NCBI GenBank assembly: GCA_963930775.1
Contig: OZ005689.1
Coordinates: 18,189,775 to 18,253,774, forward strand
Direction: 5' to 3'
DNA from: Cliona cf. orientalis
Taxonomy: Eukaryota; Porifera; Demospongiae; Clionaida; Clionaidae
DNA length: 64,000 nucleotides
Below the pieces are notes generated by a model, which saw nothing but the letters and a program-made list of their open reading frames with translations, did not search any database and was not told the origin of the DNA. The position numbers were made by a program, and so were the translations under genes. The first letter of the stretch is position 1, and every line of letters starts with the position of its first letter. Of this stretch, positions 1,770-58,773 are shown piece after piece.

Positions 1770-2860
1770 GATGCTATTTGTCAAACTCAATGCAAGAAGA
1801 CTGAGCCTTCTGTAGCTTGACCTTGAAAGGACTAGCCATCACTGTATAATTAATATTAATGATTGCGTAATTATTCTATCAGTTTGGCTTCTTAGTGGAG
1901 TAAATATACAAGACCTCATAAGTGCTTAAGTGTAGTAGGTCACTTACGGGTCAGAGCAGACGAGATAAATCCAAGAGGGAGTGGTGAAACCGTTTATGAA
2001 ACGTACCAGGATCAAGAACAGGTCAGAATTTCAGCTAGGAGTGCTCACTACGTATGTACATACCATCCAGAATGTTACTATGTAACGGAATGCGGCGCGC
2101 GCACAATCTGGCAGGCCGAAATAGGCTAAGCTAAACTTACTATTTATGATGAACTTATCAAATAAAGCCTAGCTATTGCGTAAATGCCCTGCATTGGTGC
2201 ATGCATGCATGTTTTTAATTAATTTAATTAGGTTAGTAAGTGGGCGCAGTTATTAATAAACTAGTTAATATCCCCTATAATATGTCAAGAATGTCTGAGA
2301 GACCGTAGCTTGTTCACTGTAGCTTCTGTAGCCTGAAATGTGTGTACCTGTCTGTACATTGTGGACACGGGCCTAACTGTAGAGTAACACTAGTGACTAA
2401 CACGTGCTCAATTTCTTAGCACGGTGCCAAAGTGACAATGGGGAAGTACCTAGCTGTTTTTACGGCTCTTGTGTTCTTGACGGCTTTGATGGAGAGAGAG
2501 TCCATGTTATGATCCTACATCTGCCTGCCTACCTACCTACCTTACCGTCGTTATTGCCAAGCGAGTGCATATTAAAGCTGGTAGTCATTTATAGAGTCAT
2601 TGCGCATGTAGATGGACGATCTGATGCCAGGGTAGTACAAATTATACGTGTACTGTTACAGCAAAGGGGGATGGAGGGGAAAGCTGAATAGCTAGCTACA
2701 CATAGGGATTGTAAATCTGAGGGCACTCTGTATGGAATGCTGACCTGTATTACTTAGTACACTAGAATTAATGTTATTCATCGTGTTTTATATAGCTGCC
2801 TACTGTATGACAGTACTGGTGATGACGTTCAGAACCCTGATGAGAGGATTGTTAGAATGT
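1770..2860. other. No recognised gene
   Basis: AT-rich sequence with short open frames that have no recognisable motif. A short palindromic run of TGCATGCATGCATG lies near 2200. Nothing else could be supported. Confidence 0.5.
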
Positions 2861-3025
2861 CAATCGACCAACTGAATAAAGCATTCAAGTGTAGTCTCCA
2901 GGTTGGCATCATTATTGATCAATCGAGTTGTCCACGATAAAAAATGCAGGTGGTAGACAGCGTGACAGCTTTCTATCATTAAACTGGACACTTACAGCTC
3001 TGCACAACGGTGCTACTACGTCAAC

Positions 3026-5470
3026 ATCAACCCTTCACACCAGTTGAAGATGTCCCTGCAAAATCAGTTACAGACTTCTACACAAGTTATTGGAGAGATT
3101 CAATCCACTTCCATATGTCATATACACTCAGCAAAGCACTATTCTAAAAGACATACAAGACGGCTTAAGAAACGTGTCGAAGAATGTGCTGCTGCTCTCT
3201 CATGGTTAGAAAATGATGGTTTGACACCTGTTAGTGTGACAGTTAACACAGAAACTGAGAAGCTATAAAACAGTCAGAAAAGATCTAGAAACTGCTTTGA
3301 TACTAAATGGAGAAGAGCTCGGAGAACAGGAGGCTGATTTAGTATCCATGACATTATATGTAAAGGATGAGTATAACTTTTCTGGAAGCGCCTACCATGA
3401 ACTTGCATCCTTGTGTTGTGAAATGCCCTACCATTATCGACTGAAGCAACGAATCATTGAACTACATTCGAAATGAAATATACCGTAGGACGGGTTTTAA
3501 TTGCGTAGTTAAATACTGGTGTTCTAGTCAAGTCAGGCCAAATTTTGAATCCAATAATTGCGATGGATGACCCCGTACCGTACTGTAGTATACGTGCATG
3601 CATGTTTGTTTGTGAATCTATTAATTGCGAAACGTAGAAAAACTCGCAATTCGCAATTAAAGCCCAACCTATGGTAGTCCCAACTCCAGAAGGAACAGCA
3701 AAAGTTCTGCAACGATTGCAAGTGTCTAATAGCATGTCTTAAGCGACTCGTGAGTTAAGTGATTAACACTATTGTACATTTTTATTCGGGGATACGTTTA
3801 GGATGTAGAGCGGCAATCCCCCCTCTTACTGGATGTTTGTCCCCCTTTAAAATAATAGCGTGGCAGAAAAGCCCCCCTTCTCGCCAGAAATCCTAGATGC
3901 AACCCTATTCGACCATGCTTGTCTATATGTACACGTGTACCATGCATGTGTTTGTTTGCTGTTGCCTAGCAACCAAAGTTTTGTATAGGCAAATTGCTGG
4001 CTACAGAGGGGTATGGGTAACCATAGGGTAGCCCAATGATGGGGATCATGGGCCAACAAAATAGTTATACAATAGCATGGGTGCTTCTGAGTACAAACAC
4101 AGCATTATAGTACATGTCACAGTACATTGCATGCATTGGATCATATGTGATATGCAAGTGTATCACTAACATGTTCTCTTATACACACATGTAGGTTAAT
4201 GTATCTCTGCTGATGCTCCTTGCAGAATCAAACAGTGCAGATTAAACTAACTGGCGATGGCACAAACATTGGTAAACATTTACACGTGAATTTTGCCTTC
4301 ACCCTCCTCGATGAAGGCGACCTTGCTTAGAGTGCAGCCGGCAATCACTGTATTGCTATATTTAAGGAAACAGAAAGCTACGAGTCAATGAAACTGTCTT
4401 CAGGACATTATTCAAGATGTAAAAGATTTGAACAAGATAAGTGTATGCGGTGTTGCATTCGGTATCACTTACTACCTCGGTGGTGACTGGAAAATTTGAG
4501 CAATGATTACGGGTATTGACTCTGCCACTGCAACACGTGCATGCATCTGGTATAAGTGTCCAGCTATTGAACGATGTGATTCTGCGCAAGTGTGACGAAC
4601 GTTTTGGAGCAAGGACAATGGAAGAAAACACCAGGCTAGCCTTATCGAGAGTGAAGAAATATAATGTATCACAGCCTCCACTAATTACAGTTCCACTTAC
4701 ACGGGATAATGTTGACAATCTGCATATGTCCTTAAGGGTTGAAGATACATTGATCTATTTGCTAATATTGGAACTTTGATGGCTAGATAAAATTGAAAAG
4801 GCGACAAAAGCTAAAAAGCGTAGACCAGCTCCATTACATCAAGAAATACGAAAGTACCCTTAAAAATGCTTGGAATATTACGATTTTCATTCTGGATTGG
4901 TAAAGACTCAAAGCACCTCAAGTGGTGCTTGCTCACTGGGCCAGAAAAATTGTTTTCAAAAAGTTTAACATTCTGAAACTTTTCAGAAATTCCAGATTCA
5001 ACTAGTGTTCATGCACTGTGGAAAATATTAGACGTTAATAACCTACTTTCCATCGGTTCAGAAAACTTAACAGTTGTAGAGTTTTATTCAGAGTCAAAGA
5101 ATTTGTCCATATTAGGACCATAATAATTATGTTCACTGAAATCTACCCTGCAAACCACGTGACACCATACATGCACATGCACAGCATGATGCAACATGTC
5201 CGTCAGTTCATGATGCTAAGTGGTGCTATTCTGCCTTTTACGCAGCAGGCACTTGAAAAATACAATGACCTAGTCACAAAGGATTATTATCGTTCATCAT
5301 CACACAGGGGTCAGGAGTGTTTGACTCAGATCTTGCAGAAACAAAATCAAATCGAGGACCTTGAAAGTTCAGGAGCCAAATGAAAGAAGAGATTTTAAGT
5401 CACATGTAGCAAGTGTGGCAGTAATGGACATAACAAGACATCTTGTAGTAAACAAAAGAAAACTTAACAG
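3026..5470 (+). pseudogene. Decayed transposon-type gene ending in a zinc knuckle
   Basis: Coding fragments in the same order, but in changing frames, cover the interval. They include KDEYNFSGSAYHELASLC near 3370, IKLTGDGTNIGKHLHV and FTLLDEGDLA (stop) SAAGNHCIAIFKE near 4235-4370, YYLGGDWKI near 4475, GIDSATATRACIWYKCPA near 4510, TVPLTRDNVDNLHMSLRVED near 4690, and a block at 5129-5383 with TPYMHMHSMMQHV and EKYNDLVTKDYYRSSSHRGQ. It ends near 5400-5450 with CSKCGSNGHNKTSC, a CX2CX4HX4C zinc knuckle. I recognise this series of motifs as a multicopy gene family of sponges, cnidarians and other animals that behaves like a transposon gene, but I know no name for it. At least six frame changes or stops show it is dead. 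Confidence 0.6.
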
Positions 5471-11430: not shown

Positions 11431-14400
11431 TTGTTCTCATGATTGCATTGTCTGTAGAGCAATACTGGGTTACTATCAAATGTGGGTGTATCCATAATAA
11501 TAATAATATTATTATTATTGCTACAGTTTTCTGAAACTCAAGGTACATGTACAGGTGTATGGTCTGTTATGTGTTGTGCTGATTTCTACAGAGATTTGTG
11601 TTGGAAATTTCAGCAATTCATCCAAGTTTTGTTATTCAACATATTAACGTGAGTATACGTACCATAGTGTGATTGTGACCATAATGGAGTGCTTGCATGG
11701 TAATACTGTATCTATTCATCTTCTGCAGTGATATGGAGTCAGTTGAGAGTGCTGATGCACAAAAAGTGAGTACTTGAAAAAAATATTAGCCTCGGACCTG
11801 AGCTATTAACTTTAATTATTATTGTTTTTACACAGGATGTGTGTGTTACACAGGATATGTATATTATGGTGTCTGGTGATACACCAGAAAGGCCAGTGAT
11901 AGGCAGTATTATCAAGGTAAGGTGACAAACGCATGTTATAAGAGTTTATTTGTGGGGGGGGGGGGGGGGGTATTTTTGCAATAACGAGGTTGGGTCCTAT
12001 CTCCAAGTTAATTTCCACCAATGTTTCTGGTCCATAGGCGGATTATTACATGTATATCACCTGATGGTTCGGAGGGGAGGGGGTGTCTACTTAATTACAA
12101 TCGCCCATTGACAGTTGAATGAGCAAACCATGTAAGATAGAATTACGCTGAGAGCATGTCCGGCTTTTCCTTCCATTTCTTGATGGTTGAGGCATACACA
12201 AAAAGATTGAAACTATGTATGGAAAATGACTGTTATAAGAGTCGAAATCTGTACCAGAATATCGGATGAGAGGCAAGATCAGCACAAAGATTGTCCAGTG
12301 ATACTCTTTCTTTCTGGACTGAAGATCATAGCGATCACAGTCATCACCATAAGATTCAGCTCCTCCAAGTCAGTGGTTACACAAATTCCATGCTTGATAC
12401 GGTGGAGTGCCACCAGTGACAGACAAGAAACGCAAATTGCGTAAAAAAATACAATGTATGTTCAAGGCTGGAACAATCTTCCATCCTTTGGGAACAAGTC
12501 AGCCTTATCTTAGTGGCGAGATGGAATATTAAACTCGGCCCCTTAATTTGGATCAACCTCATAATAAATACATGTACTATACTGGGGAACTTTCTAATAA
12601 GCCGCCACAACAATGTATATAGAAAGTCACGTAACACATGCCTTCGGGCACAAATATAACCATATAGTAGGGAAAAACAACACAAAATTCTCAGTGTTGT
12701 AAGAATGTTAAAAAAGCCCCAATAATATGAGGAATCCTGGGTAGGATAAGAAGAACTGGAGAGATGTAGTTATGCATAATAATTATATACTATAAGCAGA
12801 CACACAGTGGGCGGGAATGAGACTTCCAAAGCATATACTTTACATACTACAAGACCAAGAAGTGATGACGCTTTACCATTTTGCTAAGTCTGGCTAGTGG
12901 GGAGGCCTGGTGGGTGTACACTAGACTGGGAGGCTGATACATTTCGCTTACATGACATTGTACACGTTGAAAGAAGTCTGTATGCATGCACATCACCGTA
13001 AGTTTTCTTTGCTATTTAGGATACCCCCACGTCAAATAATGATAGTCTCAATGTGACAGTGGAGGGTGATGAAGAGACTGACAGTCTCAACGTGACAGTG
13101 GAGAGTAATGATGGCTCCCTGTACATTCCAACCCCTCAAAGAAAGGTTAGAGAGAGCATACAAAATACGTCAATTATTCCATCAAATATTTGCTTCATGG
13201 ACTTGAAACAGTTGAACAAGTTCATCAAGCAAGTGAATCAAATACGTTGTTGTGCCACACCTGGTTGTAAAGGTGCATTGTGTCCCATTCATGTGAAAAG
13301 CCTTGGGCTGGGTGGTGCTCTTTCTATCACCTATGCTTGTAACGGTTGTGCTAGTCAGTGGGCATTGTTTGAAACATCGTCTAAATACGAACTTGGCTGT
13401 GCTACCGAAATTAGTATTGCTGTGCAGGTGGCTTTTATCATAGCTGGTTGCACGCATGTGACTTATTACAAGGTATTGAAGCATGCACTTGGGATTGAAG
13501 GAGTTAGTTGGCCAATGTTTGATTCGACCATCAAGAGAATGTACCCTATTGTCAAAGAGATGGTCGATATGATGTGTAGTGATGCAAAGGATGACATGCA
13601 ACGCATGGACCAACATGAACTGGGTTCATGGAGTCGTGCTATCACGTCCGCTGATGGCACGCGGATGACGCGTGGCTTTCACAGCAAAAATGCTACTTTC
13701 AGCATTCGAAACTACTACAATGGAGCTCTTTACCGCAAGCATCTCTGTCAGAAAGGCAGAGATGACATAATTGAAGAAGAGCTCTACCAGGGGACCTCCA
13801 AAGGTGCCGAAGGCTATGCCGCACGCCTTACGTTCAAAAAAGCCAAAGAAGAAGGGATGAACATTGCCATTCAGTGGCAAGATGCCGACTCGTCCTCTGC
13901 TAAGGCAGTGACAGACCACTTTCCCAATGCCAAGATCATGATCTGTGGTGGACATGCCGGTAGGGCCCACAAGAAGCAGCTGGAAAAGCTGCAGAAAATT
14001 AAATCCTTCACTGTTGATTTAATAAGAAAGTATAAAGGCACTTTTCCCTCTGTTGGCGATGTGGTCTGTCATTGCTCAAGGCATAAACAGGGATGTGGTT
14101 GTTTCTCCAAGGCATTCATTGAAAAGGCTAGAATCTACTTTTCGCTAATTTTGTCAATGAGTGAATCTGCTGAAGAGTTTGCAACCAAGATGAAAGGATT
14201 GGCCAGACATGCCCGCGACGAACACGACTGGGGGTTTGGTAGGTGTGACTTTCACCAACTTCGAGTATGCAGCTGTGGTGAGTGTGAGGATGGAGAGGAT
14301 CTGAAGTGCGAAGGAACAGACTATCACACAAGGCATGCACTGACATGTCCTTTCCACTCTCTGGCTTACGAAATTGAATGCCACGAGAGAGCAGAAATGG

Positions 14401-14468
14401 CCGAACAACTGGTTCACCCCATTCTTAAGAGGGGGCATTCCAATTGGTTGGAGGCCTCCCACAGTGTA

Positions 14469-14496
14469 TTCATTTGCTTCAGTTCATTCGCTTCAG
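14469..14496 (+). repeat. 14-bp tandem duplication that frameshifts the transposase
   Basis: Two adjacent copies, TTCATTTGCTTCAG (14469-14482) and TTCATTCGCTTCAG (14483-14496), differ at one base. Ignoring one copy joins the Glu-bearing transposase end to the downstream frame, giving FRPKHIFLERLHYVV without a gap. Confidence 0.9.
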
Positions 14497-14566
14497 ACCA
14501 AAGCACATCTTCCTCGAGAGGCTACACTATGTGGTTTCAACCGAGCTGGCTCTGCTGTAATCCAAC

Positions 14567-15733
14567 ATGACATACATGTATGAGAAGCGTGAGCCACAAT
14601 ATCCTCGGGTGGTTGAGCTGTTTGAGCGTCTGAAGCTACCTGTGTTTGATGGTGTTCAGGCTGCTCTGGAGACATTCAATCGACAGAGAAAGATGTACTT
14701 AGATCAGGAAAAGACCGATTCCTCCAAGCGGAGGCGAATACAGTTAAAAAATGAGCGAACAGTGGATGCACAGTGTCGCAAGCTGTGGTCAAAGAAGCAT
14801 GGCCATGATACCTACGGCAGTGACGACAGTGACATAGACGAAGATGAACTCAAACGAAGAGGACAGAAGAAGCGTACAACTGGAGGGACGTGCAAGTGTG
14901 GGTCCACCACTCACCTACGTACCAACCATGATGAATGTCCTTTGAACGTAAAGAATCAGAGAAGTGATGTTTCTGTGAATGACAGAGCATCTGACAATAA
15001 TGTCATTTCCTATTCTGAGGATACCCTGTCAGACGCAGAAAGCATTTCTTTGGAAAAAAGTGTGCCTACCCCAACTGGTGACACTAGTTGGTGTTTTGAA
15101 GATGACGTTATAAGTGGTATCTGCGTGTGCGGAGCGCTCGGACGAGCACACAAGAGGGATTGCCCCTCAAACTCACGAAATCGTTACGTTGGGTGCACAT
15201 TGTTTCCCAAGGCCTCTTCTGCTGACTCTGAAAAGAATGGCAAGAATGATGATTGTGTGAAATCCAAACCTCCTAAAGCAAGCAAGCCAGTCGATACGAG
15301 GTCCACTCGTCGAGAAAAGAGAGAAAAGCCAGGTGGTGAGAAGCCTCCCCCAGCGAAAAGGCCTAGGTCCAACTTCAAGATGGGTGACTGCGTGAATTTG
15401 CATGATAGCAAATTGGGAAAATGTCACCTTCCTTGCTGCGTTGTGCAAGTGTTTGGTGATCGATGCCTACTATGTTGTCACAAGGGAGTTCTCACTACTG
15501 GCTATGCAAAGGGGCAGTTGACAGCTATCAGCGGTGATCCATCCATTTCAGTAGACAACTGGCGAACTGCAGGAAGGACCTCACTACGAGATGTAGCAAA
15601 TGATTCTGTAAATCTCAAATTGTGTAACTGTGGCCTAGCCAAGACTGTTGTTGAGCATGTTGTTGACCTGACTGACGATCCCACAGCCGTGTCTTCAGCC
15701 GATGGTTCTGCAGTTGTAAGCAACACCTGGGTG
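14567..15733 (+). pseudogene. Central zinc-cluster part of the transposase polyprotein
   Basis: This open stretch follows the in-frame TAA at 14558-14560, which lies three codons before the first Met, so it is not an independent gene. The start (MTYMYEKREPQYPRVVELFE) continues the transposase C-terminal helix region. Two similar zinc-binding motifs follow: CKCGSTTHLRTNHDECPLN and CVCGALGRAHKRDCPSN. A basic segment (RREKREKPGGEKPPPAKRPR) is a likely nuclear localisation signal. The block GDCVNLHDSKLGKCHLPC, followed by a Cys-rich stretch, resembles a small beta-barrel found in the same place in related sponge proteins as I recall them. Acidic and Ser-rich linkers separate the parts. Confidence 0.65.
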
Positions 15734-15744
15734 TCCACTCCACC

Positions 15745-16460
15745 TTGCACATAGATAAGAAACGGGAAATTCTTTCATCTGATGGTTGGCTCTCAGATAC
15801 AGTCATTAGGGCCGGTCAGTTGCTCATCTTGCAGGAATTCCCAAACATAGCCGGCCTGCAAGATCCAGCAGTTCACAGGAGTCTGTCATTCCAAATCCTC
15901 AGAGAATTTGTGCAGATCATCTTTGTTGGAGGCTGTCACTGGTGTACCGTTTCCAACATTGGATGTGACGATGGAGTGGTCAATGTGTACGACAGCATGT
16001 ACTCCAGTGCTTCCAGTGGGACAGTCAAATTGATTGCCAGCCTTGTGTTTAGTCCTGCTAAACAGCTTGTAGTGAGAATGATGGATGTTGGAAGGCAGTC
16101 AAATGGTTCCGATTGTGGAGTCCTTGCCTTAGCATTTGCGTATGACATTTGCAGTGGTAATGACCCATGCAAGATCAAGTACAATCACAGGTCTATGAGG
16201 CAGCACATGGCAGAGTGCTTGGAGAAATGTCGCCTCTCTCGCTTCCCAGCGGTTGGTGAGCGCAGGACTGTTGGTGTCAGGCACACCCAGTCAGTGGACC
16301 TTTACTGCTCCTGCCGCTTGCCCGAGGAAATGGGTGATAAAATGGCTGAGTGTGATGTATGTAAAACCTGGTACCACAAACACTGCATGGACGTTCCTAA
16401 CTATGTTTTTGAAAAAAAAAAGATGTCCCCTGGAAGTGTAAATCATGTGCCGCAGTGTGA
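15745..16460 (+). pseudogene. Ulp1-like (C48) protease domain followed by a PHD finger
   Basis: The open frame at 15745 starts at TTG, so it is a continuation and not a real start; the 5-bp duplication TCCAC at 15734-15743 separates it from the upstream part. Counting from 15745, the protease has His65 in GGCHWCTVS, Asp83 in VYDSMYS, Gln118 and Cys124 in GRQSNGSDCGV: a complete SUMO-protease-type catalytic set. A PHD finger begins at Cys188 (LYCSCRLPEEMGDKMAECD, then CKTWYHKHC). Its last two Cys lie in another frame after A10 at 16412-16421 (WKCKSC, stop TGA 16458-16460). Ulp1 domains fused to Mutator-like transposases are known in other eukaryotes. The PHD finger suggests a histone-tail reader for targeting; that is inference. 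Confidence 0.8.
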
Positions 16461-16604
16461 AACTCTACCTAGTATTTTGGTATACCCAGGTGTGGCCACA
16501 TGTATTGATTACCAATCCATCCTCTCTCTCTTATATTTCTCTCTCTGGGATATGATATCACCTCTCTCTATTATATACATGTACATGCATAACTGTATAT
16601 ATCT

Positions 16605-16608
<4 letters not shown>

Positions 16609-16636
<28 letters not shown>
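16609..16636. repeat. (TC)n microsatellite
   Basis: An uninterrupted TC dinucleotide tract lies just downstream of the transposase gene. Confidence 0.95.
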
Positions 16637-16639
<3 letters not shown>

Positions 16640-17009
16640 CTCGTCTCAATGCTAGTACATGTATGTGTACATGTCTATTACCATAATAATATTATTTCTT
16701 CTCAGTGTTATTTCTCTTCATACCTGTGTTTTCTCGAGTGTTAAGGCACGTCAACTCAATAAGCCTGACGCAGGGAAGGTTTATGCAGTTGTAGGCTCTA
16801 CCTTTCTTGAATTTTGTTTTGGGGTTCCTGAATGTCAGGTCATAGGGTACAGGTACTGGTTATCAATCTTATCTGTATGCTTGTAGTGACACTGCCAAAC
16901 CAGCTGACTGATTTTTTTGCACTACCTTATAAGGAAGTACACAAATACCATGTCAGCAAACAGGGTTGTTCTCTGCTCTGCCATAATATCTAGATGTACA
17001 TGAATCTCT

Positions 17010-22461: not shown

Positions 22462-22729
22462 CTCACAACACTCTAACACACACATACACACAGCAGCTGC
22501 AAATATTTGCTAGGTTTTAGTAGTTAAAATGATAGGTGCATAATATAATGATTGTGTGTTCACACTACATAATAATAATATAGAGAGAGTCTATGCTATG
22601 ACTGTTATGAATTTGGGTGGAAGTGAGTGTTTGGTGTAGTCATACCTTTCTCTCATATGTGAACACATACACACACACACTTATCCCTACTATCCATGGC
22701 ACTTGTGCAATTTTTTGTGACATGTAATT

Positions 22730-22802
22730 ACAGCCAGTGCTGCTGATGAGGCCTGGTATTGGCCGAAACCTGAGGAATTACCTCAGGTCCAGCACATGCT
22801 GT
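22730..22802 (+). ncRNA. Type I hammerhead ribozyme, copy 1
   Basis: All conserved parts are present in order. Stem I outer ACAGC (22730-22734) pairs with GCTGT (22798-22802), and stem I inner GTGCTG (22737-22742) pairs with CAGCAC (22790-22795), leaving a CA/AT internal loop. The core CTGATGA is at 22743-22749. Stem II is GGCC, loop TGGTATT, GGCC (22750-22764). GAAA is at 22765-22768. Stem III is CCTGAGG, loop AATTA, CCTCAGG (22769-22787). The cleavage triplet GTC ends at 22789. Stem I is open, so it is type I. The internal loop in stem I and the stem II loop are where tertiary contacts form in active ribozymes. Self-cleavage after 22789 is predicted. No host gene or retroelement was identified around it. 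Confidence 0.93.
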
Positions 22803-23299
22803 ACTCTCTTGTAGGACCTCAAAGAGGTACAGATATGGAATCAAGCATCATGGCAATGGTATTTAGCTATAAGGCAGGCCTTTATTCTGGGGGGAGGTAT
22901 TTTCCCTCCCTATCATCAAGGACACTGTAATTATATTACGCTTTGTATTAGTTTCCCCCTCTGTGGTATTGGGTTCACTATAGACTAAAGATTCTGTACG
23001 GAATACTGCAAGGCGACTTTGAGAGCAACCATGAGTATGAGAAATCTCCAAATTGGAAGAGTCAGGTGAGAAATTGGTCAGCCTCACGCATCAACTTGGA
23101 CTCGGGGATATGTCAACTCTTGGATCACTCTCAGTTGAAAAAACACTGTTGCAGAAATAAACCCAGCCATTCCCCGGTACTATAACAATATATTGTGTTG
23201 GTGATTTATGTTTCCTGCCACATTCCGTGGGGGCAACCCACCACACTAGCTACATGTACAATTTCGACTTGACGTGCGCGCGCATGATGATAATTGATT

Positions 23300-23440: not shown

Positions 23441-23513
23441 TATAATAATAGCTAGCCAACTTCGCGAAATCGTTCACTTCTGAGTTCACTGCTCGACAGG
23501 GATAATTCTCTCT

Positions 23514-24619
23514 ATGGCGTTCTCGTTGTCACCACCACCACCACCACCACCACTATCGCAGGATTTGAGCCCCGTTGTCCGCTCGAGGTCACCTCGTAGG
23601 CCACCACGGACCACTAGGTCTAGGAGAAGTGATTCCACACGTACATCGTCTTACTCGCCTCCAAGAACCCGAGCTCGCTCCCGGGGCCGTGCTGAAGCTG
23701 TGCGTGACGCTTGTGACAACGTGGTGTACTTAATTGATAATGGAGCTACTGGTGTGGCTGCAGCTGGCGACCGTTCAAACCAGGTCAAATTTATGCAGAA
23801 TTTATGCAGATCATGGGATTGGTGGGCGAGGATGCTACCGTTTCGGAAGGGCAAGAGTATGCCCCACCATTCCCTGTGGATGATGAGCAGCTCAAACTGT
23901 TGCAAACAGCGATGGACCATGATCTACACCCACGTTACCAAGTGAGAGGGACCTGTGACGGGTACTATACCCCAGATCAATTGGACGAGTGCATCAGTGG
24001 AAGTGAGCCACAGCAGTGCCAGTGCAGTGCACATGCAGCTCTCTTTTCTGGCACCTTAACAGATGATCAAATGGAGGACTTCAAGGATCTCATAAGAAGC
24101 CCGTCAAGGATCAAGAACTTGGAAGAGGGTAACTCCTTCGTTTTGGCTCTGTTGAGGAGGTTGGTGTATCTTTTCAGAATGCCCGGTGTGCGAGTGTCTG
24201 CTGCTGGTCGGAGCAATGGTGTCAATTATATTTTGGTACACCAAAATAAAAGCTACTCCTTCCGTGGGTATCCTGACTTTGTAGCTTTACGAGACGACTA
24301 TGGAGCACAGAGGATACTAGTAGCAGTGGGAGAAGTCCAAAGCCCCTCTGACCCCGACACACAGAACTCAATCTATGGAGTTGGGTTGCTTTCTTCTTGT
24401 CCAGCCGACACAAGTGCAGTAATATGCATCACGATCTTTAAAAGAAAGTATGCCACCTTAGCTATTGCCAGGCTTAAGAGAGACCCACAGGAAATGTCAT
24501 ACGGTAAAGCAGTAGGAACAGTGTCATTGAAGTATGTTGTCAGTCCCTCCCCAATAGATTTGATCATGGATTTGAAGACATTTGCTATACGTCTGTACTC
24601 ACTGTTGTCAAGTATTTAA
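23514..24619 (+). pseudogene. RS-rich protein with PD-(D/E)XK-like motif, frameshifted by an 11-bp duplication
   Basis: ATG at 23514 opens a single-exon frame starting MAFSLSPPPPPPPLSQD, then an Arg/Ser-rich segment (SRSPRRPPRTTRSRRSD) typical of nuclear or RNA-binding linkers. At 23789-23810 the 11-mer ATTTATGCAGA is duplicated in tandem; without one copy the frame runs straight into 23804-24619, giving 364 residues in total. The C-terminal part has RGYPDFVALRDD followed after about ten residues by LVAVGEVQSPSD and a helix with SIYGVGLL. That pattern (PD...E-x-Q) resembles PD-(D/E)XK nucleases with Gln in place of the usual Lys. The nuclease reading is inference. I do not recognise the family by name. 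It may be a host gene with a recent null allele, a multicopy element gene, or an assembly artefact. Confidence 0.6.
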
Positions 24620-37346: not shown

Positions 37347-39200
37347 AGCTCCCTACTCAAAATGGAGAGCCTGAAATATGCATATTTCAGCACATTTCAT
37401 GCGCCCAAATCCAGAAAGTTCCATGCATGAAATTTCCAATGACAATATTGAATAATTCGAAATTTCATGCATGTTACATGCATGATTCCTAAAACATGCA
37501 TGTAACATGCAGGGATTTGGGACGTTTTTCGGGTATGGGACATGCATATTACATGCATGGATTGGTGCCTAAATTTCATGCATGTTCCATGCATGAAAAA
37601 TATGGATATTTCATGCATGAAACCTGCATGTTCCAGGTGTATTCCATGCGTCGTACAAGCGTATTCCAAGCATGATACAGGCGTATTCCATATGTGGTAC
37701 AGGCGTATTCCATGCGTAGTACAGGCGCATTCCATGATACTGGGAAATTCCATTCATGTGTGCATACACAGTACAGCTACAGCAAGGGCGGAGAATAGGT
37801 AGCAAAAGTGGGGGGGGGGGGGGCTCAAACCTTTGATTGTGTACTGTGACAATGGTTAGGCTATGTGCATATGCCTATAGCCCACCTAGGGGGGTCTGGG
37901 GGCATGCTCCCCCAGAAATTTTTGGAAACTTTGACTCTCTGAGAGTGTTCCTGATGCATTCTGGCAGCAGTTGTTGGACTGATTTAGTAGCTATTTTTAC
38001 CCGAGCACTCTTTTGCAAACACCCAGAACTATGTTGCTGTAATTTTATAGCATGGGCATGTGATAAAATGGGGGGGCTCAGCCCCCCTTGTTTCCAAAGT
38101 GGGGGGGCTGAAGCCCCCCCTGCCCCCCCATTTCTCCGCCCCTGTACAGGCATATTTTAATAACCCTTGGACAGAGTACTTGTACTATACTTGCTGTAAG
38201 CATAAGGCACTGTGCTCCTGCATAGGCAAGTGTGCTCTTCATAGATATGTAGATACTGGCTTTAAGAAAATAGGTAAAGCTTGTTGGCACCTATAGACAT
38301 GCATATTATGCTGTAAGATATGAGATTTAGAGCAGCTCTTACATAATTTTATAGCAGAGGTATACACATTCTGTCCCCCAAAAAATTACAGGTATATGAA
38401 TATCTCAGCAGTATGTTACTACCCACTGATTAGCAGCTAAACCATATTCAGTGTTCACATACATGTAGCTACATGGCACTGTATACGTACTGGCCCTCCC
38501 TCCCCCCTCCCCCCAATTTGGTCTTTTACATATTGTAGGATACTTCAGTAACTAGCACTGAGACCCCAAGGTGAGTTTGAGGACTGAAATAAGGGACCAC
38601 ATTCTTATCTGTAACCTTGATATCTGTAATGCTAGTTGGGGACAACTTTCAAACTAAAGAAGCTCTTTTTATTTACACTCATCCAGCCAAATAAACTTAC
38701 AACCACACTATAATTATGGAAATTAATTTTACATGGGGTATACTAAACAATGTGTTAATTTAGTATGGCTCTCCAAGTTAGGCTATATAGTAGCTACTTA
38801 CCTTGGAGCACTAAAGGTTTCACAAAGTCTCACACTTTCAAATCTACAAAGCAGCTGCTTCTAATCAGTATGATGTAATGTGGAACTTTATGCATGTAAC
38901 ATGCATGGTTCAGGAGTGATAAAATCTCACACATGTTTCGTTTCATGCATGTTTCATGCATGGTATATCTGTCACACGTATTTTATACTTTCATGCATGT
39001 TTCATGCGTAACATACACTTTCATGTATGTTTCATGCATGAAAAATGCATGGAAGTAACTTCCATGCATGAAACATGCATGAAAGTATATTCCATGCATA
39101 AACTATCCTGAAACATGCATGGCAAACGCATGAAAGTCGCTTCCATGCATGAAATGTGCTGAAACATGCATGTTTCAGGCGCTCCATTTTGAGTAGGGCT
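37347..39200. mobile_element. 1.85-kb non-autonomous element N1, copy 1, inserted in the KDZ gene
   Basis: The termini are inverted repeats with CCCTACTCAAAATGGAG followed by (A/C)GCCTGAAA, a palindrome ATGCAT, and GCACATTTCATGC. The first several hundred bases at each end are palindromic CATGCATG-type repeats. The coding sequence of the host resumes exactly at 39201. At most a 2-bp (AG) duplication is visible. Copy 2, in opposite orientation, is at 47079-48955. No protein is encoded. Confidence 0.9.
37783..38144. mobile_element. 362-bp MITE nested in N1 copy 1, duplication TACAG
   Basis: Ends CAAGGGCGGAGAA and TTTCTCCGCCCCTG, flanked by TACAG at 37778-37782 and 38145-38149. N1 copy 2 lacks an insertion at this point, which confirms the boundaries. 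The interior has G runs and the hairpin GGGGGGCTCAGCCCCCC. Confidence 0.93.
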
Positions 39201-40820: not shown

Positions 40821-41189
40821 TATATACCTGGCGGGGAGACCACACCTCCTTTTCTTCCTTTCTTCACTGTAGCCACCCATCCATAGATGGTAGGATATGA
40901 GCTGCAAAGTGGGTCTTCAACATCATAGTGGACGTACAGTATGTAGAGGCCACCACAGTGGAGAGAAATCTCTGTGTGACAGTATTGACACATGTAGGGA
41001 TAATATACGCATGTGGAGTAGATTACTCCTGATTGTACACAAGCCCTTGAGTATACACAAACTCTATAATAATAATTATGATAGTTAGATGTTAGTTGCA
41101 TATTACCGGTTTTTTTCAAAACCACCAAATAAACAAAAGATTACCACCAAGCGAGCAACATTATCAACAGAAATAAAAAAAAAAACTAG

Positions 41190-43017
41190 CTACGTATTGA
41201 TACTAAACACTCTTCTATGAGATTTATAAGTCTTAACAGCCTCATCTACATCTTTACATGTGTGTCCTTCAGCATAAGCTTTTAAAAAATCCCTGCATGT
41301 TGCAAAAAACTTGCTAGTTAAGTCCGGTTTACAGGTATCCAGAGTTTGAGGTACTATAGTTCGTAATCTAGTGATAGTTCCATTTGCATATGATCGAGAG
41401 TATTTTTTGGCATGACACCAACATCTTTCTATAGCATTTAGTTCGCAATGAAACTTGGGAAAGAACATGCATAAATGTCCACGACTTTCAACTTTTTCCT
41501 CCACCAGTGTTTTAGCATTTTTAAAATTGTCAAATTTTGATAATTCCTCTCTTAATTTGTCTGCATTCATACCTCTGATATCTATACCTCTCTCCTGCGG
41601 GACTATTTTTAATCCTTTTGGACGTCCATCAGGGAGAACCATTGTCTGCTGAATTCCATTGTACACTGTATTCCTCATTACTGGTTGCTTTCCTCCTGGT
41701 CGAACATTCATATTCTCTACTCTGAGTGCATCATCAGGACATTTTTTTGTGTGATGGTGCATTATCAAAGACAAATAATCCTTGATATGTAGGGTATTTG
41801 GCCTCAAATATGTCAATTGCTTCATCAACTTGAAGAAGGAATTTATCGCTGTCAAAATAGCCGTCGGTTTGTGTTTCAAGAAGAAGACGTGCCTGTTTAT
41901 CTTCGTGCCGAAGATAGTCACCACTTGCTTCCTCAATAAAATCAGATACCATTATTGCCTGACCCAAAGATTTCTGTTTTAAAATAGTCATTCTACCATC
42001 GCTCCAATAATTGGATTGGTCAGCATTAGAATAAAAAGTGGATTCATCGTGGTGTACGACAATTATTGGCATTTGGCCTTCCCTCGAGACAGGTGTATAA
42101 CCAGGACGTGAACAGAACGGCTCAAGCTCCATTACCTTCGAAACAAACTCACTTCTGTACGCAACTACATCACTACGCTCATGTCCATCAAAGTACACGC
42201 CTTTGTGGTGATTTTTTTGTGAGAATCCAAGATTATGAAGCCAAGAACGGGCTGTTTCACAACAAATGGTCACACCATACTTTTCAAATATCCATTCACA
42301 AAAAGCTTGGCTGGTCATGTTAGGCTGTCCACGAATACAAGAATTTTGTCGTATGTACTCCCTAGCTGCTAAGCGAAAATCTTCATCATTTAAGAGACTT
42401 CCAGTTAACTTGCTGGTTCGGCCTCTCTCCGATGATAGTAAGTCTACCATAACATCATGATCAATGGACTCAGGGGAGATATCTACCAGTGACATGTAGT
42501 ACTGTGATGCCCACTTTCGAACAGTGTATGCTGAAGCTCCAGTGACGTCAGCAGCCCGACTTGCAGCTTCAACAATGCCAAGTCCCCAGAGTGTTACGCC
42601 AGCTGTGAAGACTTGAATAGCAAGTGCTCTGTGCATTTCAGTAGATACATTTCTCTCCACATACTTGTCTATCTTTTGTTTGCCAATATCAATCACCAAT
42701 TTGTTTTTCTTTAATAGATTTTGCAGTGTTTTACAGGGCTCATGATCGTTGTCCACATCTTCATGCTCTTCCCACCTAACTACATTTGCAGCTACACTGT
42801 CCCCACGGGGCTCATATCCATCATGGTTCTGTTGCACCATTCTAGCTACTGCAACTTCTTTGCATGCCCTCTTACCTCTAGGCTGGTCGTTGGTGATCTC
42901 ACTCAGGAGCTGATTGACTCCCCTGCACCTCTTCTTGCGAGGCTTCACCAATGAGGAAGCTGTGGTTTGGTTCTCAAAAGAACCGGTTGGGTCGGCGGTG
43001 GCATTAGCACAGAGCAT
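41190..43017 (-). pseudogene. IS630/Tc1-superfamily DDE_3 transposase with one frameshift
   Basis: A genuine ATG at 43017 opens 427 codons. A basic segment (VKPRKKRCRG) and a helix-turn-helix-like region (LWGLGIVEAASRAADVTGAS) precede the catalytic core: Asp324 in VVHHDESTFY and Asp418 in LFVFDNAPSH. The frame then shifts at T7 (41742-41748) and continues with DALRVENMNVRPGGKQPV and the last catalytic residue in HCELNAIERCW, ending at 41190. Six T instead of seven would give one protein of about 608 residues, the usual size for this family, which is best known from fungi and some invertebrates. All three catalytic acids are present. Terminal repeats were not identified. The single homopolymer lesion might be a sequencing error, in which case the gene is intact. 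Confidence 0.88.
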
Positions 43018-47078: not shown

Positions 47079-48955
47079 TTACTCAAAATGGAGCGCCTGA
47101 AACATGCATGTTTCAGCACATTTCATGCATGGAAGCGACTTTCATGCGTTTTCCATGCATGTTTCAGGATAGTTTATGCATGGAATATACTTTCATGCAT
47201 GTTTCATGCATGGAAGCTACTTCCATGCATTTTTTATGCATGAAATATGCATGAAAGTGTATTTTATGTATGAAACATGCATGGAACATGCATGAAAGTA
47301 TAAAACACGTGTGACAGATATACCATGCATGAAACGAAACATGCGTGAGATTTTATCACTCCTGAACCATGCATGTTACATGCATGAAGTTCCACATTAC
47401 ATCATACTGATTAGAAGCAGCTGCTTTGCAGATTTGAAAGTGTGAGACTTTGTGAAACCTTTAGTGCTCCAAGGTAAGTAGCTACTATATATATAGCCTA
47501 ACTTGGAGAGCCATACTAAATTAACACATTGTTTTGTATACCCCATGTAAAATTAATTTCCATAATTATAGTGTGGGTGTAAGTTTACTGGCTGAAAGAG
47601 TGTAAATAAAGAGAGCTTCTTTAGTTTGAAAGTTGTCCCCAACTAGCATTACAGATATCAAGGTTACAGATAAGAATGTGGTCCCTTATTTCAGTCTTCA
47701 AATTCACCTTGGGGTCTCAGTGCTAGTTACTGAAGTATCCTACAATATGTAAAAGACTTAAATGGGGGGGGGGGGGGGGGGGGGGGGGAGAGGGCCAGTA
47801 CGTATACAATGCCATGTAGCTATGTGAACACTGAATATGGTTTAGCTGCTAATCAGTGGGTAGTAAAATACTGCTGAGATATTGATATACCTGTAGTTTT
47901 TTGGGGGACAGAATGTGTGTACCTTTGCTATAAAAATTATGCAATAGCTGCTCTAAATCTCATATCTTACAGCATAATAGGCATGTCTATAGCAGGGGCG
48001 GAGAAATAGGGGGGGGGCAGGGGGGGCTTCAGCCCCCCCACTTTGGAAACAAGGGGGGCTGAGCCCCCCCATTTTATCATAATATTATGCCCATACTACA
48101 AAATTACAGCAACATAGTTCTGTCATAATTCTAGGTGTTTGCAAAGAGTGCTAAAGTAAAAATTGCTACTAAAATCAGTCCAAAAATTGGTGCCAGATTG
48201 CATCAGAAACGCTCTCAGGGAGTCGAAATTTCCAAAATTTTCTGGGGGAGCATGCCCCCTAGGTGGGCTGTGGGCACATGCCCACAGCCTAACGGTTAAT
48301 TGTCACAGTACACAGTCAAAGGTCTGAGCCCCCCCACGTTTGCTACCTGTTCTCCGCCCTTGTATAGGTGCCAACAAGCTTTGTCTATTTTCCTTAAAGC
48401 CAGTATCTACACATCTATAAAGAGCATACTTGCCTATGCAGGAGCACAGTGCCTTATGCTTACAGCAAGTATAGTACAAGTACTCTCTCCAAGGGTTATT
48501 AAAATAATATGCCTGTAGCTGTACTGTGTATGCACACATGAATGGAATATCCCAGTATCATGGAATGCGCCTGTATCACGCATGGAATACGCCTGTATCA
48601 TGCTTGGAATACGCTTGTACGACGCATGGAATACACCTGGAATATGCAGGTTTCATGCATGAAATATCCATATTTTTCTTGCATGGAACATGCATGAAAC
48701 ATGCATGAAACATGCATGAAATTTAGGCACCAATCCATGCATGTAACATGCATGTCCCACACCTGAAAAACGTCCCAAATCCCTGCATGTTACATGCATG
48801 TTTCAGGAATCATGCATGTAACATGCATGAAATTTCGAATTATTCAATATCGTCACTGGAAATTTCATGCATGGCACTTTCTGGATTTGGGCGCATGAAA
48901 TGTGCTGAAACATGCATGAAACATGCATGTTTCAGGCGCTCCATTTTGAGTAGGG
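47079..48955. mobile_element. 1.85-kb non-autonomous element N1, copy 2
   Basis: Opposite in orientation to copy 1. The left end is TACTCAAAATGGAGCGCC and the right end is its complement followed by GGG. The internal order of palindromic blocks, a TTGGGGACAACTTT-type segment (complement in copy 1) and AGTATAGTACAAGTACTCT matches copy 1 throughout. A G run of about 26 bases at 47763-47788 replaces a short C-rich stretch in copy 1. No gene. Confidence 0.9.
47993..48362. mobile_element. 370-bp MITE nested in N1 copy 2, duplication TATAG
   Basis: Ends CAGGGGCGGAGAAATA and TTCTCCGCCCTTG, flanked by TATAG at 47988-47992 and 48363-48367. Copy 1 is uninterrupted at this site. It is the same MITE family as 37783-38144 but at a different place in N1, so the two insertions were independent. 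Confidence 0.93.
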
Positions 48956-54887: not shown

Positions 54888-55087
54888 TATCACTGACAGT
54901 GATGCTGTATATTGAGGTAGGATAAAACCACACATTACAGTGCAGTTACTGACTCGGTCTACCCTCGTCTCCTGGCCACTGCCAGGTTTTCAATGTTACA
55001 CTCGCGTTGCGGTGAAAAAGATCAGGGAGGCTGGGGACAAGACTAGACTCAGTCTAAGTTGTTACTGAGCTGGATGAAATGAAGAAG

Positions 55088-55151
55088 CCCACAGTGCTGC
55101 TGATGAGGCCTGGCATTGGCCGAAACCTAGGTCCAGGTCCAGTACATTGGG
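55088..55151 (+). ncRNA. Type I hammerhead ribozyme, copy 2
   Basis: Stem I outer CCCA (55088-55091) pairs with TGGG (55148-55151). After a CA/AT internal loop identical to copy 1, GTGCTG (55094-55099) pairs with CAGTAC (55140-55145) with one G-U pair. The core CTGATGA is at 55100-55106. Stem II is GGCC, loop TGGCATT, GGCC (55107-55121). GAAA is at 55122-55125. Stem III is reduced to CCT/AGG with loop AGGTCC (55126-55137). The cleavage triplet GTC ends at 55139. Short stem III is common in metazoan type I hammerheads. Flanks outside the ribozyme show no similarity to copy 1. Confidence 0.9.
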
Positions 55152-55269
55152 AAAGACAGACAGAGCTAATGTAGGTGCATCCAGGATCTAAATGAATTTT
55201 AATTAATGTTCCATAAATTTGGGGAAGGGGACAGACACACCCTACAATGTCGTGTCATTTGTACAAGTG

Positions 55270-58522: not shown

Positions 58523-58773
58523 CACTATGACACCAGCTGGGATGTGAACAAAGTGGAACCTTTAGTGAATGGGGTAGCTTTGAAAAAAGCTGGTTGGTGA
58601 GAGAATATAAAGTATAGAAAATGAAGTATAGTGTACAAAGTCAAGGTGGTGAGGTTGTATAGTCTCCTCTGGAATGCTTTCTGACCTCCTGAATATCATC
58701 TCCTGTCCATGGAGTAGTCTACATCATGTTTACTGTATATACTCCTCTTTTTGCATACACAATCAACACTCAC

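Follow-up and report, generated by a model that had tools for sequence, protein, structure and literature searches.

A solitary type I hammerhead ribozyme in the genome of the sponge Cliona cf. orientalis and a covarying family of its relatives

The window analysed here, a stretch of 64,000 nucleotides from the Cliona cf. orientalis genome (contig C1, 18189775–18253774, of a 216.8 Mb assembly), carries a genuine type I hammerhead, a motif of the self-cleaving type whose catalysis is predicted from its sequence. This hammerhead, which we call copy A, is a new, additional copy of an already known kind of motif. Our preferred reading, to which we assign a probability of about 0.7, is that copy A is a real solitary member of a hammerhead family that forms the conserved component of non-autonomous elements of the animal retrozyme kind, which are old and diverge rapidly; copy A would then itself descend from a mobile element.

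The type I hallmarks found in copy A are the CTGATGA and GAA core segments, the A15.1–U16.1 pair and an NUH cleavage triplet (GTC), arranged around three helices of which, by fold and covariation, helix I is open-ended (Table 1). The minimum-energy fold is exactly the hammerhead, with an energy of −36.6 kcal/mol compared to −21.0 ± 2.9 kcal/mol for shuffled sequences (z −5.3), and none of 200 shuffles matches it. The internal loop of helix I and loop II are both present, and 6 of the 7 loop II positions are invariant in an alignment of 26 rows described below. An earlier, sequence-only reading of this DNA had proposed a complete type I hammerhead with every named element in correct spacing. 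All of these elements are indeed present at 22729–22803, and completeness holds in sequence and fold, with stems that covary across sub-families of the same genome. Its stem III of 7 bp stands on its own way of counting and becomes 8 bp when A15.1–U16.1 is included. That a chance origin is very unlikely is borne out by a descriptor of core and stems (CTGANGA, GAA, A15.1–U16.1, a cleavage site that is not G, and minimum lengths of 4/3/4 bp for stems I/II/III); applied to both strands of the 64-kb window, it finds two sites, at 22743 and 55100, and none in 200 dinucleotide shuffles. The second of these sites belongs to another hammerhead, at 55085–55153, that the sequence-only reading had missed.

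Table 1 Hammerhead features of the window (positions are those of the window).
Feature	Position	Strand	Basis
Complete type I hammerhead ribozyme, copy A	22729..22803	+	Fold; covariance model from other loci
Outer stem I 5' strand TACAGC, partner 22798–22803 (GCTGTA)	22729..22734	+	Fold; inter-family covariation
CA/AT internal loop between outer and inner stem I of copy A		+	Sequence, fold
Inner stem I 5' strand GTGCTG, partner 22790–22795 (CAGCAC)	22737..22742	+	Sequence, fold
Core CTGATGA, copy A	22743..22749	+	Sequence
Stem II GGCC/GGCC, loop TGGTATT, copy A	22750..22764	+	Fold
Core GAA, copy A	22765..22767	+	Sequence, fold
Stem III ACCTGAGG/CCTCAGGT, loop AATTA	22768..22788	+	Fold; covariation
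Cleavage triplet GTC; predicted cleavage 3' of 22789	22787..22789	+	Sequence
Second hammerhead, group 2, stem III 4 bp	55085..55153	+	Descriptor (site 55100); 77.1 bits, E 4.8e-21
Stretch (about 110 bp) common to group-2 loci elsewhere on C1, 75–84% identity	55046..55156	+	

Scores from Rfam and from a model of the relatives diverge. With relaxed thresholds on 351 bases, Rfam returned for copy A Hammerhead_HH9 at 22.9 bits (gathering cut-off 52, E 0.0018) and RAGATH-1-hammerhead at 25.6 bits (gathering cut-off 56.3), and no Rfam match to copy A reached a gathering score; Hammerhead_1 is missing from this result because, where members of a clan overlap, the top one alone is shown. The sequence-only reading had named a low covariance-model score as grounds for refutation. 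Formally, the Rfam scores are low in just this sense. An out-of-sample test used a covariance model built from 18 rows of other loci, none of them from the window. This model gives copy A 91.1 bits (E 2.6e-25) and recovers the second copy as well, while the next site in the window scores 12.9 bits. We think that the Rfam shortfall is overridden by this relatives-built model and by covariation. Rfam alone was set aside as arbiter, its scores for copy A lying below the cut-offs and not being decisive. Four other hammerheads of the genome pass RF00163 (Hammerhead_1, cut-off 34), two on C16 at 40.4 bits each, one on C14 at 38.2 bits and one on C2 at 36.5 bits, among the 73 of 21693 candidates that were scored. 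Both window copies are missed by the Rfam models at their cut-offs; thus, annotation may overlook copies of this sort.

When up to 3 mismatches are allowed, the pattern GTGCTGCTGATGANGCCTGGNATTGGCNGAAACC matches the genome 90 times, both window copies included, while a reversed-pattern control gives no match. At least 8 sub-families can be told apart. In sub-families A (window 22743), B, C, F and G, stem I starts with AGCCAGTGCTG, and in D, D' and H (with window 55100), it starts with CCCACAGTGCTG or TCCACAGTGCTG. From the window and the retrieved loci, 26 distinct rows, with one truncated and one ill-fitting site left out, were aligned without gaps and scored on the hammerhead structure, and 94.4% of 568 cells are paired. 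The covariation score is 0.335 compared to 0.122 ± 0.013 for shuffles that ignore the relatedness of the rows (0 of 500 as high), and slid partners reach at most 0.093. Ten of the 22 pairs have changed on both sides, a count reached by 9 of 500 shuffles, with the 3' register of outer stem I selected to favour pairing; stem III, which is placed by the core motifs alone, holds five of these ten. An example of compensated changes in stem III is CCTGAGG/CCTCAGG in copy A versus CCAGAGG/CCTCTGG in family B. Opposite to these measures, the number of further pair types (19) is equalled by 448 of 500 shuffles and is not outstanding. The exact core pattern occurs in no viral contig and in no prokaryote genome searched, and no description of this family was seen in the paper listings and consulted passages on hammerheads of sponges, metazoan retrozymes, Penelope-like elements and terminal inverted repeats. 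The 26 distinct, strongly covarying rows provide a usable model for searches of other genomes.

In genome searches that passed over simple repeats and very frequent words, the 695 bp on the downstream side of copy A hit nothing but their own locus. The 477 bp on its upstream side had no full second place; besides their own locus, they hit five short stretches of ~50–60 bp, on about 70 bases some 250–330 bp upstream of copy A. Matches between copy A and its relatives start at the edge of outer stem I and end at +42 to +64, and in another comparison they cover 22722–22797; beyond the ribozyme, nothing in common was detectable. Within about 600 bp, no tandem partner was found (best score 21, shuffle maximum 27). 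The description of the carrier as unknown in the sequence-only reading is therefore right for copy A, whose downstream flank yielded no second place and whose upstream flank yielded only the short matches. With neither a tandem partner nor a flank repeat found at copy A, the locus itself gives no sign of a mobile element. Little but the ribozyme is common between the families, as in animal retrozymes (PMC7229834), and we take copy A to be a solitary survivor of such elements.

By analogy with known hammerheads, a transcript of copy A from the plus strand would cleave itself after 22789. The 5' product would carry the catalytic core, and the 3' product would start with CAGCAC and bear a 5'-OH end. 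As no second copy lies nearby, no monomer circle would be released, and copy A would at most cut its own transcript.

Several features of the window were weighed as carriers or recorded alongside. Three consecutive ORFs on the plus strand (13053–16686) were rejected as the carrier because they end 6 kb upstream of copy A. For the first, 183 relatives were found, and PF20700, which we take to be a Mutator-like transposase, is present in many of them; the third matches Ulp1 protease above the cut-off and PHD narrowly below it. On the minus strand, 41190–43017 shows winged-helix and DDE_3 matches, both under the cut-off, and is presumably Tc1/mariner-like. The histone 3' stem-loop is matched narrowly below its cut-off at 41103–41146 (+) and more weakly at 42943–42989 (−) and 58552–58596 (−), and arrays rich in CATGCATG-like units occupy 39033–39172, 47103–47248 and 48680–48929. 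The few named hits of the protein searches include a Branchiostoma protein at 40% identity, a coral protein with 13% query coverage and vertebrate proteins.

An ORF of an uncharacterised family (23741–24616, +) lies 0.9 kb downstream of copy A on the same strand, and it bears on a different explanation, namely that a former mobile copy was kept at this locus as a domesticated ribozyme that processes the transcript of the neighbouring gene. Such domestication has been proposed for the intronic hammerheads of amniotes (PMC6155905). It would fit the position of this ORF, the intact state of every stem, the flanks of copy A, for which no second copy was found, and the amniote HH9 being the best Rfam match by E-value, albeit below the cut-off. 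A homologue of the ORF with 32% identity, at locus L016 (3228–4496), likewise lies downstream of a hammerhead, its frame starting 1.3 kb downstream of one from family B. However, the protein family has 14 genome matches, and among the retrieved loci only L016 and the window contain it; the same 14 matches led us to reject the ORF as the carrier. Moreover, this gene, which occupies 23484–24616 (+) of the window in two frames, changes frame near 23800. By eye we take this family to resemble Crinkler-type nucleases. On balance, we consider domestication unlikely.

The distribution of the relatives is strongly skewed. Contig C1 makes up 37.5 of the 216.8 Mb (17.3%), yet it holds 81 of the 90 copies matched by the first pattern. 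The same is seen for an unrelated family, E, for which CCTGATGAGCTGNNATAACAGCGAAACAGAAC with up to 3 mismatches gives 91 matches (control 0), 82 of them on C1. Many family E copies have CTGAAGA. Members of family E occur 1.3–2.1 kb upstream of a family-B hammerhead at L005 (= L020), L006 (= L021), L011 and L016, and are also found in L022 and L057–L059. At L057–L059 two hammerheads lie 322–331 bp apart, but a tandem repeat was rejected for family E because the flanks differ by eye. Among the best candidates scored, the genome gives 157 Ras-domain matches, and two of the matches listed are on C1. C1 thus looks gene-poor and may be a special chromosome, or else an assembly pool.

A Penelope-like element offered another candidate carrier. 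Locus L033 contains an open frame of 1009 aa (2404–5430, +) with GIY-YIG, over its cut-off, N-terminal to a reverse transcriptase (RVT_1, under its cut-off), which we assume to belong to the Naiad clade. The element has at least 47 genome matches, many near 99% identity, of which 6 are on C1 and 41 off it; therefore, C1 is no simple collector of all repeats. Of the 47 places, only L033 lies within 40 kb of listed hammerhead copies, and element and hammerhead lie there on opposite strands. In the window and in the other loci compared, nothing matches the L033 protein, and none of its listed genome matches is near copy A. We thus rejected this element as the carrier, L033 being an isolated neighbour and 41 of 47 matches lying off C1 compared to 81 of 90 hammerheads on it.

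A few of the relatives are tandem or otherwise repeated. Twice on C16 (at 5.18 and 5.20 Mb), family F copies are paired in tandem with a unit of 154 bp. Family H at L044 has a 517 bp unit (C1:32.49 Mb) plus an inverted copy, and in L041 a flank recurs at a shift of 203–212 bp. Only 5 of the 90 copies listed are accompanied by a same-strand partner within 600 bp. Four of the five D-type tandem-pair loci have 10–15 kb in common at 97–99% identity, the fifth (C1:8.1 Mb) not. Given these large duplications and the 81 of 90 copies on C1, the copy number reflects duplication besides any transposition.

In three families, homology between copies begins at or just before the 5' edge of the ribozyme. 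Copies of families C and G with differing upstream sequence (two upstream contexts each) turn homologous 4–5 bases ahead of GCCAGTG, which marks the edge of outer stem I, and in family B (five upstream contexts) homology starts in a pyrimidine tract 14–31 bases before GCCAGTG. It continues downstream for about 170–395 bp, often to the end of the retrieved sequence. The break is seen at L012, L019, L037, L038, L060–L067 and L070, and its neighbouring sequence is (TC)n in most B copies and CA/TA-rich in L037 and L038 (G). For the end motif TGTAGCCAGTGCTG there are 45 occurrences (control 1). Of these, C1 carries 35, and there nine neighbouring pairs within 15 kb are convergent and none divergent, a limit that was set afterwards and beyond which two divergent pairs lie at 15.3–15.4 kb; near-matches of the core pattern add one convergent and one divergent pair.

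These edges and pairs raise two further explanations. One, which we regard as rather improbable, is that the hammerheads are the defined end of a new kind of multi-kilobase element, read inward from its edge, often in convergent pairs and bred mostly on one gene-poor chromosome, with copy A an end fixed upstream of a gene; none of the elements known to us ends in a hammerhead. The other, which we likewise consider improbable, makes the hammerhead the terminal sequence of a multi-kilobase transposon or retroelement and copy A its truncated end. Homology that begins at or just before the 5' edge in B, C and G and persists downstream agrees with such a terminal position, as does the convergence on C1, but the latter is weakened by the post hoc limit with its two divergent pairs and by the even split of the near-matches. 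Moreover, the flanks of the two ends vary separately: L011 and L012 have a common C-side but not B-side flank, and L012 and L019 a common B-side but not C-side flank. It is because of this independence that a DNA transposon with inverted termini is kept merely as a rival. In addition, inspection of five pairs by eye revealed no target-site duplication, a number of the pairs are copies of a single duplicated segment, and no repeat was found downstream of copy A.

That copy A is a protein-coding exon resembling a hammerhead by coincidence is highly improbable. In favour of this idea, copy A is open for 69 codons (22721–22927) with AG before and GT after, and in L012 and L014 the frame of family C also stays open across the motif. 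Against it, a hand count over the 35 condensed columns between stem I and the point where stem III begins puts 7 variable columns at codon positions 1/2 and 4 at position 3, which is what a lack of codon constraint would give; in addition, a stop codon interrupts that frame in family H, the length of loop III varies and the stems covary. Coding is thus unlikely since the inter-family changes follow no codon pattern, include the H stop and preserve pairing.

Our preferred reading, a solitary survivor of retrozyme-kind elements, can be set against the known systems. In the consulted part of PMC7229834, animal type I hammerheads sit in short tandem repeats of 150–450 bp, and similar hammerheads occur in further, more divergent animal repeats. 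As far as that part of the source describes them, the animal non-LTR retrozymes of coral, mussel and axolotl resemble the present family in type I topology, in a ribozyme that is conserved while the remainder differs between families and, for the few tandem relatives with their 154 and 517 bp units, in arrangement. A unit of 150–450 bp is found on C16 (154 bp), nearly so at L044 (517 bp) and not at copy A. Unlike those retrozymes, again as that part of PMC7229834 presents them, copy A and most of its relatives have no tandem partner, the copies are concentrated on one contig and partly inside large duplications, and three families have the ribozyme at the border of a longer repeat. The homology break at the ribozyme edge and the concentration on one contig provide leads on how animal hammerheads spread.

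Two other systems invite comparison. The amniote intronic hammerhead HH9 (RF02275) is like copy A in its stem order and in being solitary, but its model scores copy A at only 22.9 bits. Penelope-like elements, which also occur in this genome, carry hammerheads that are described in PMC11167929 and PMC7761336 as type I, like copy A, and as minimal, without helix III or loop–loop contacts. Copy A, by contrast with the hammerheads described there, has a helix III of 8 bp. As a fully paired solitary hammerhead, it constitutes a clean test case for distinguishing activity at a single locus from a relic.
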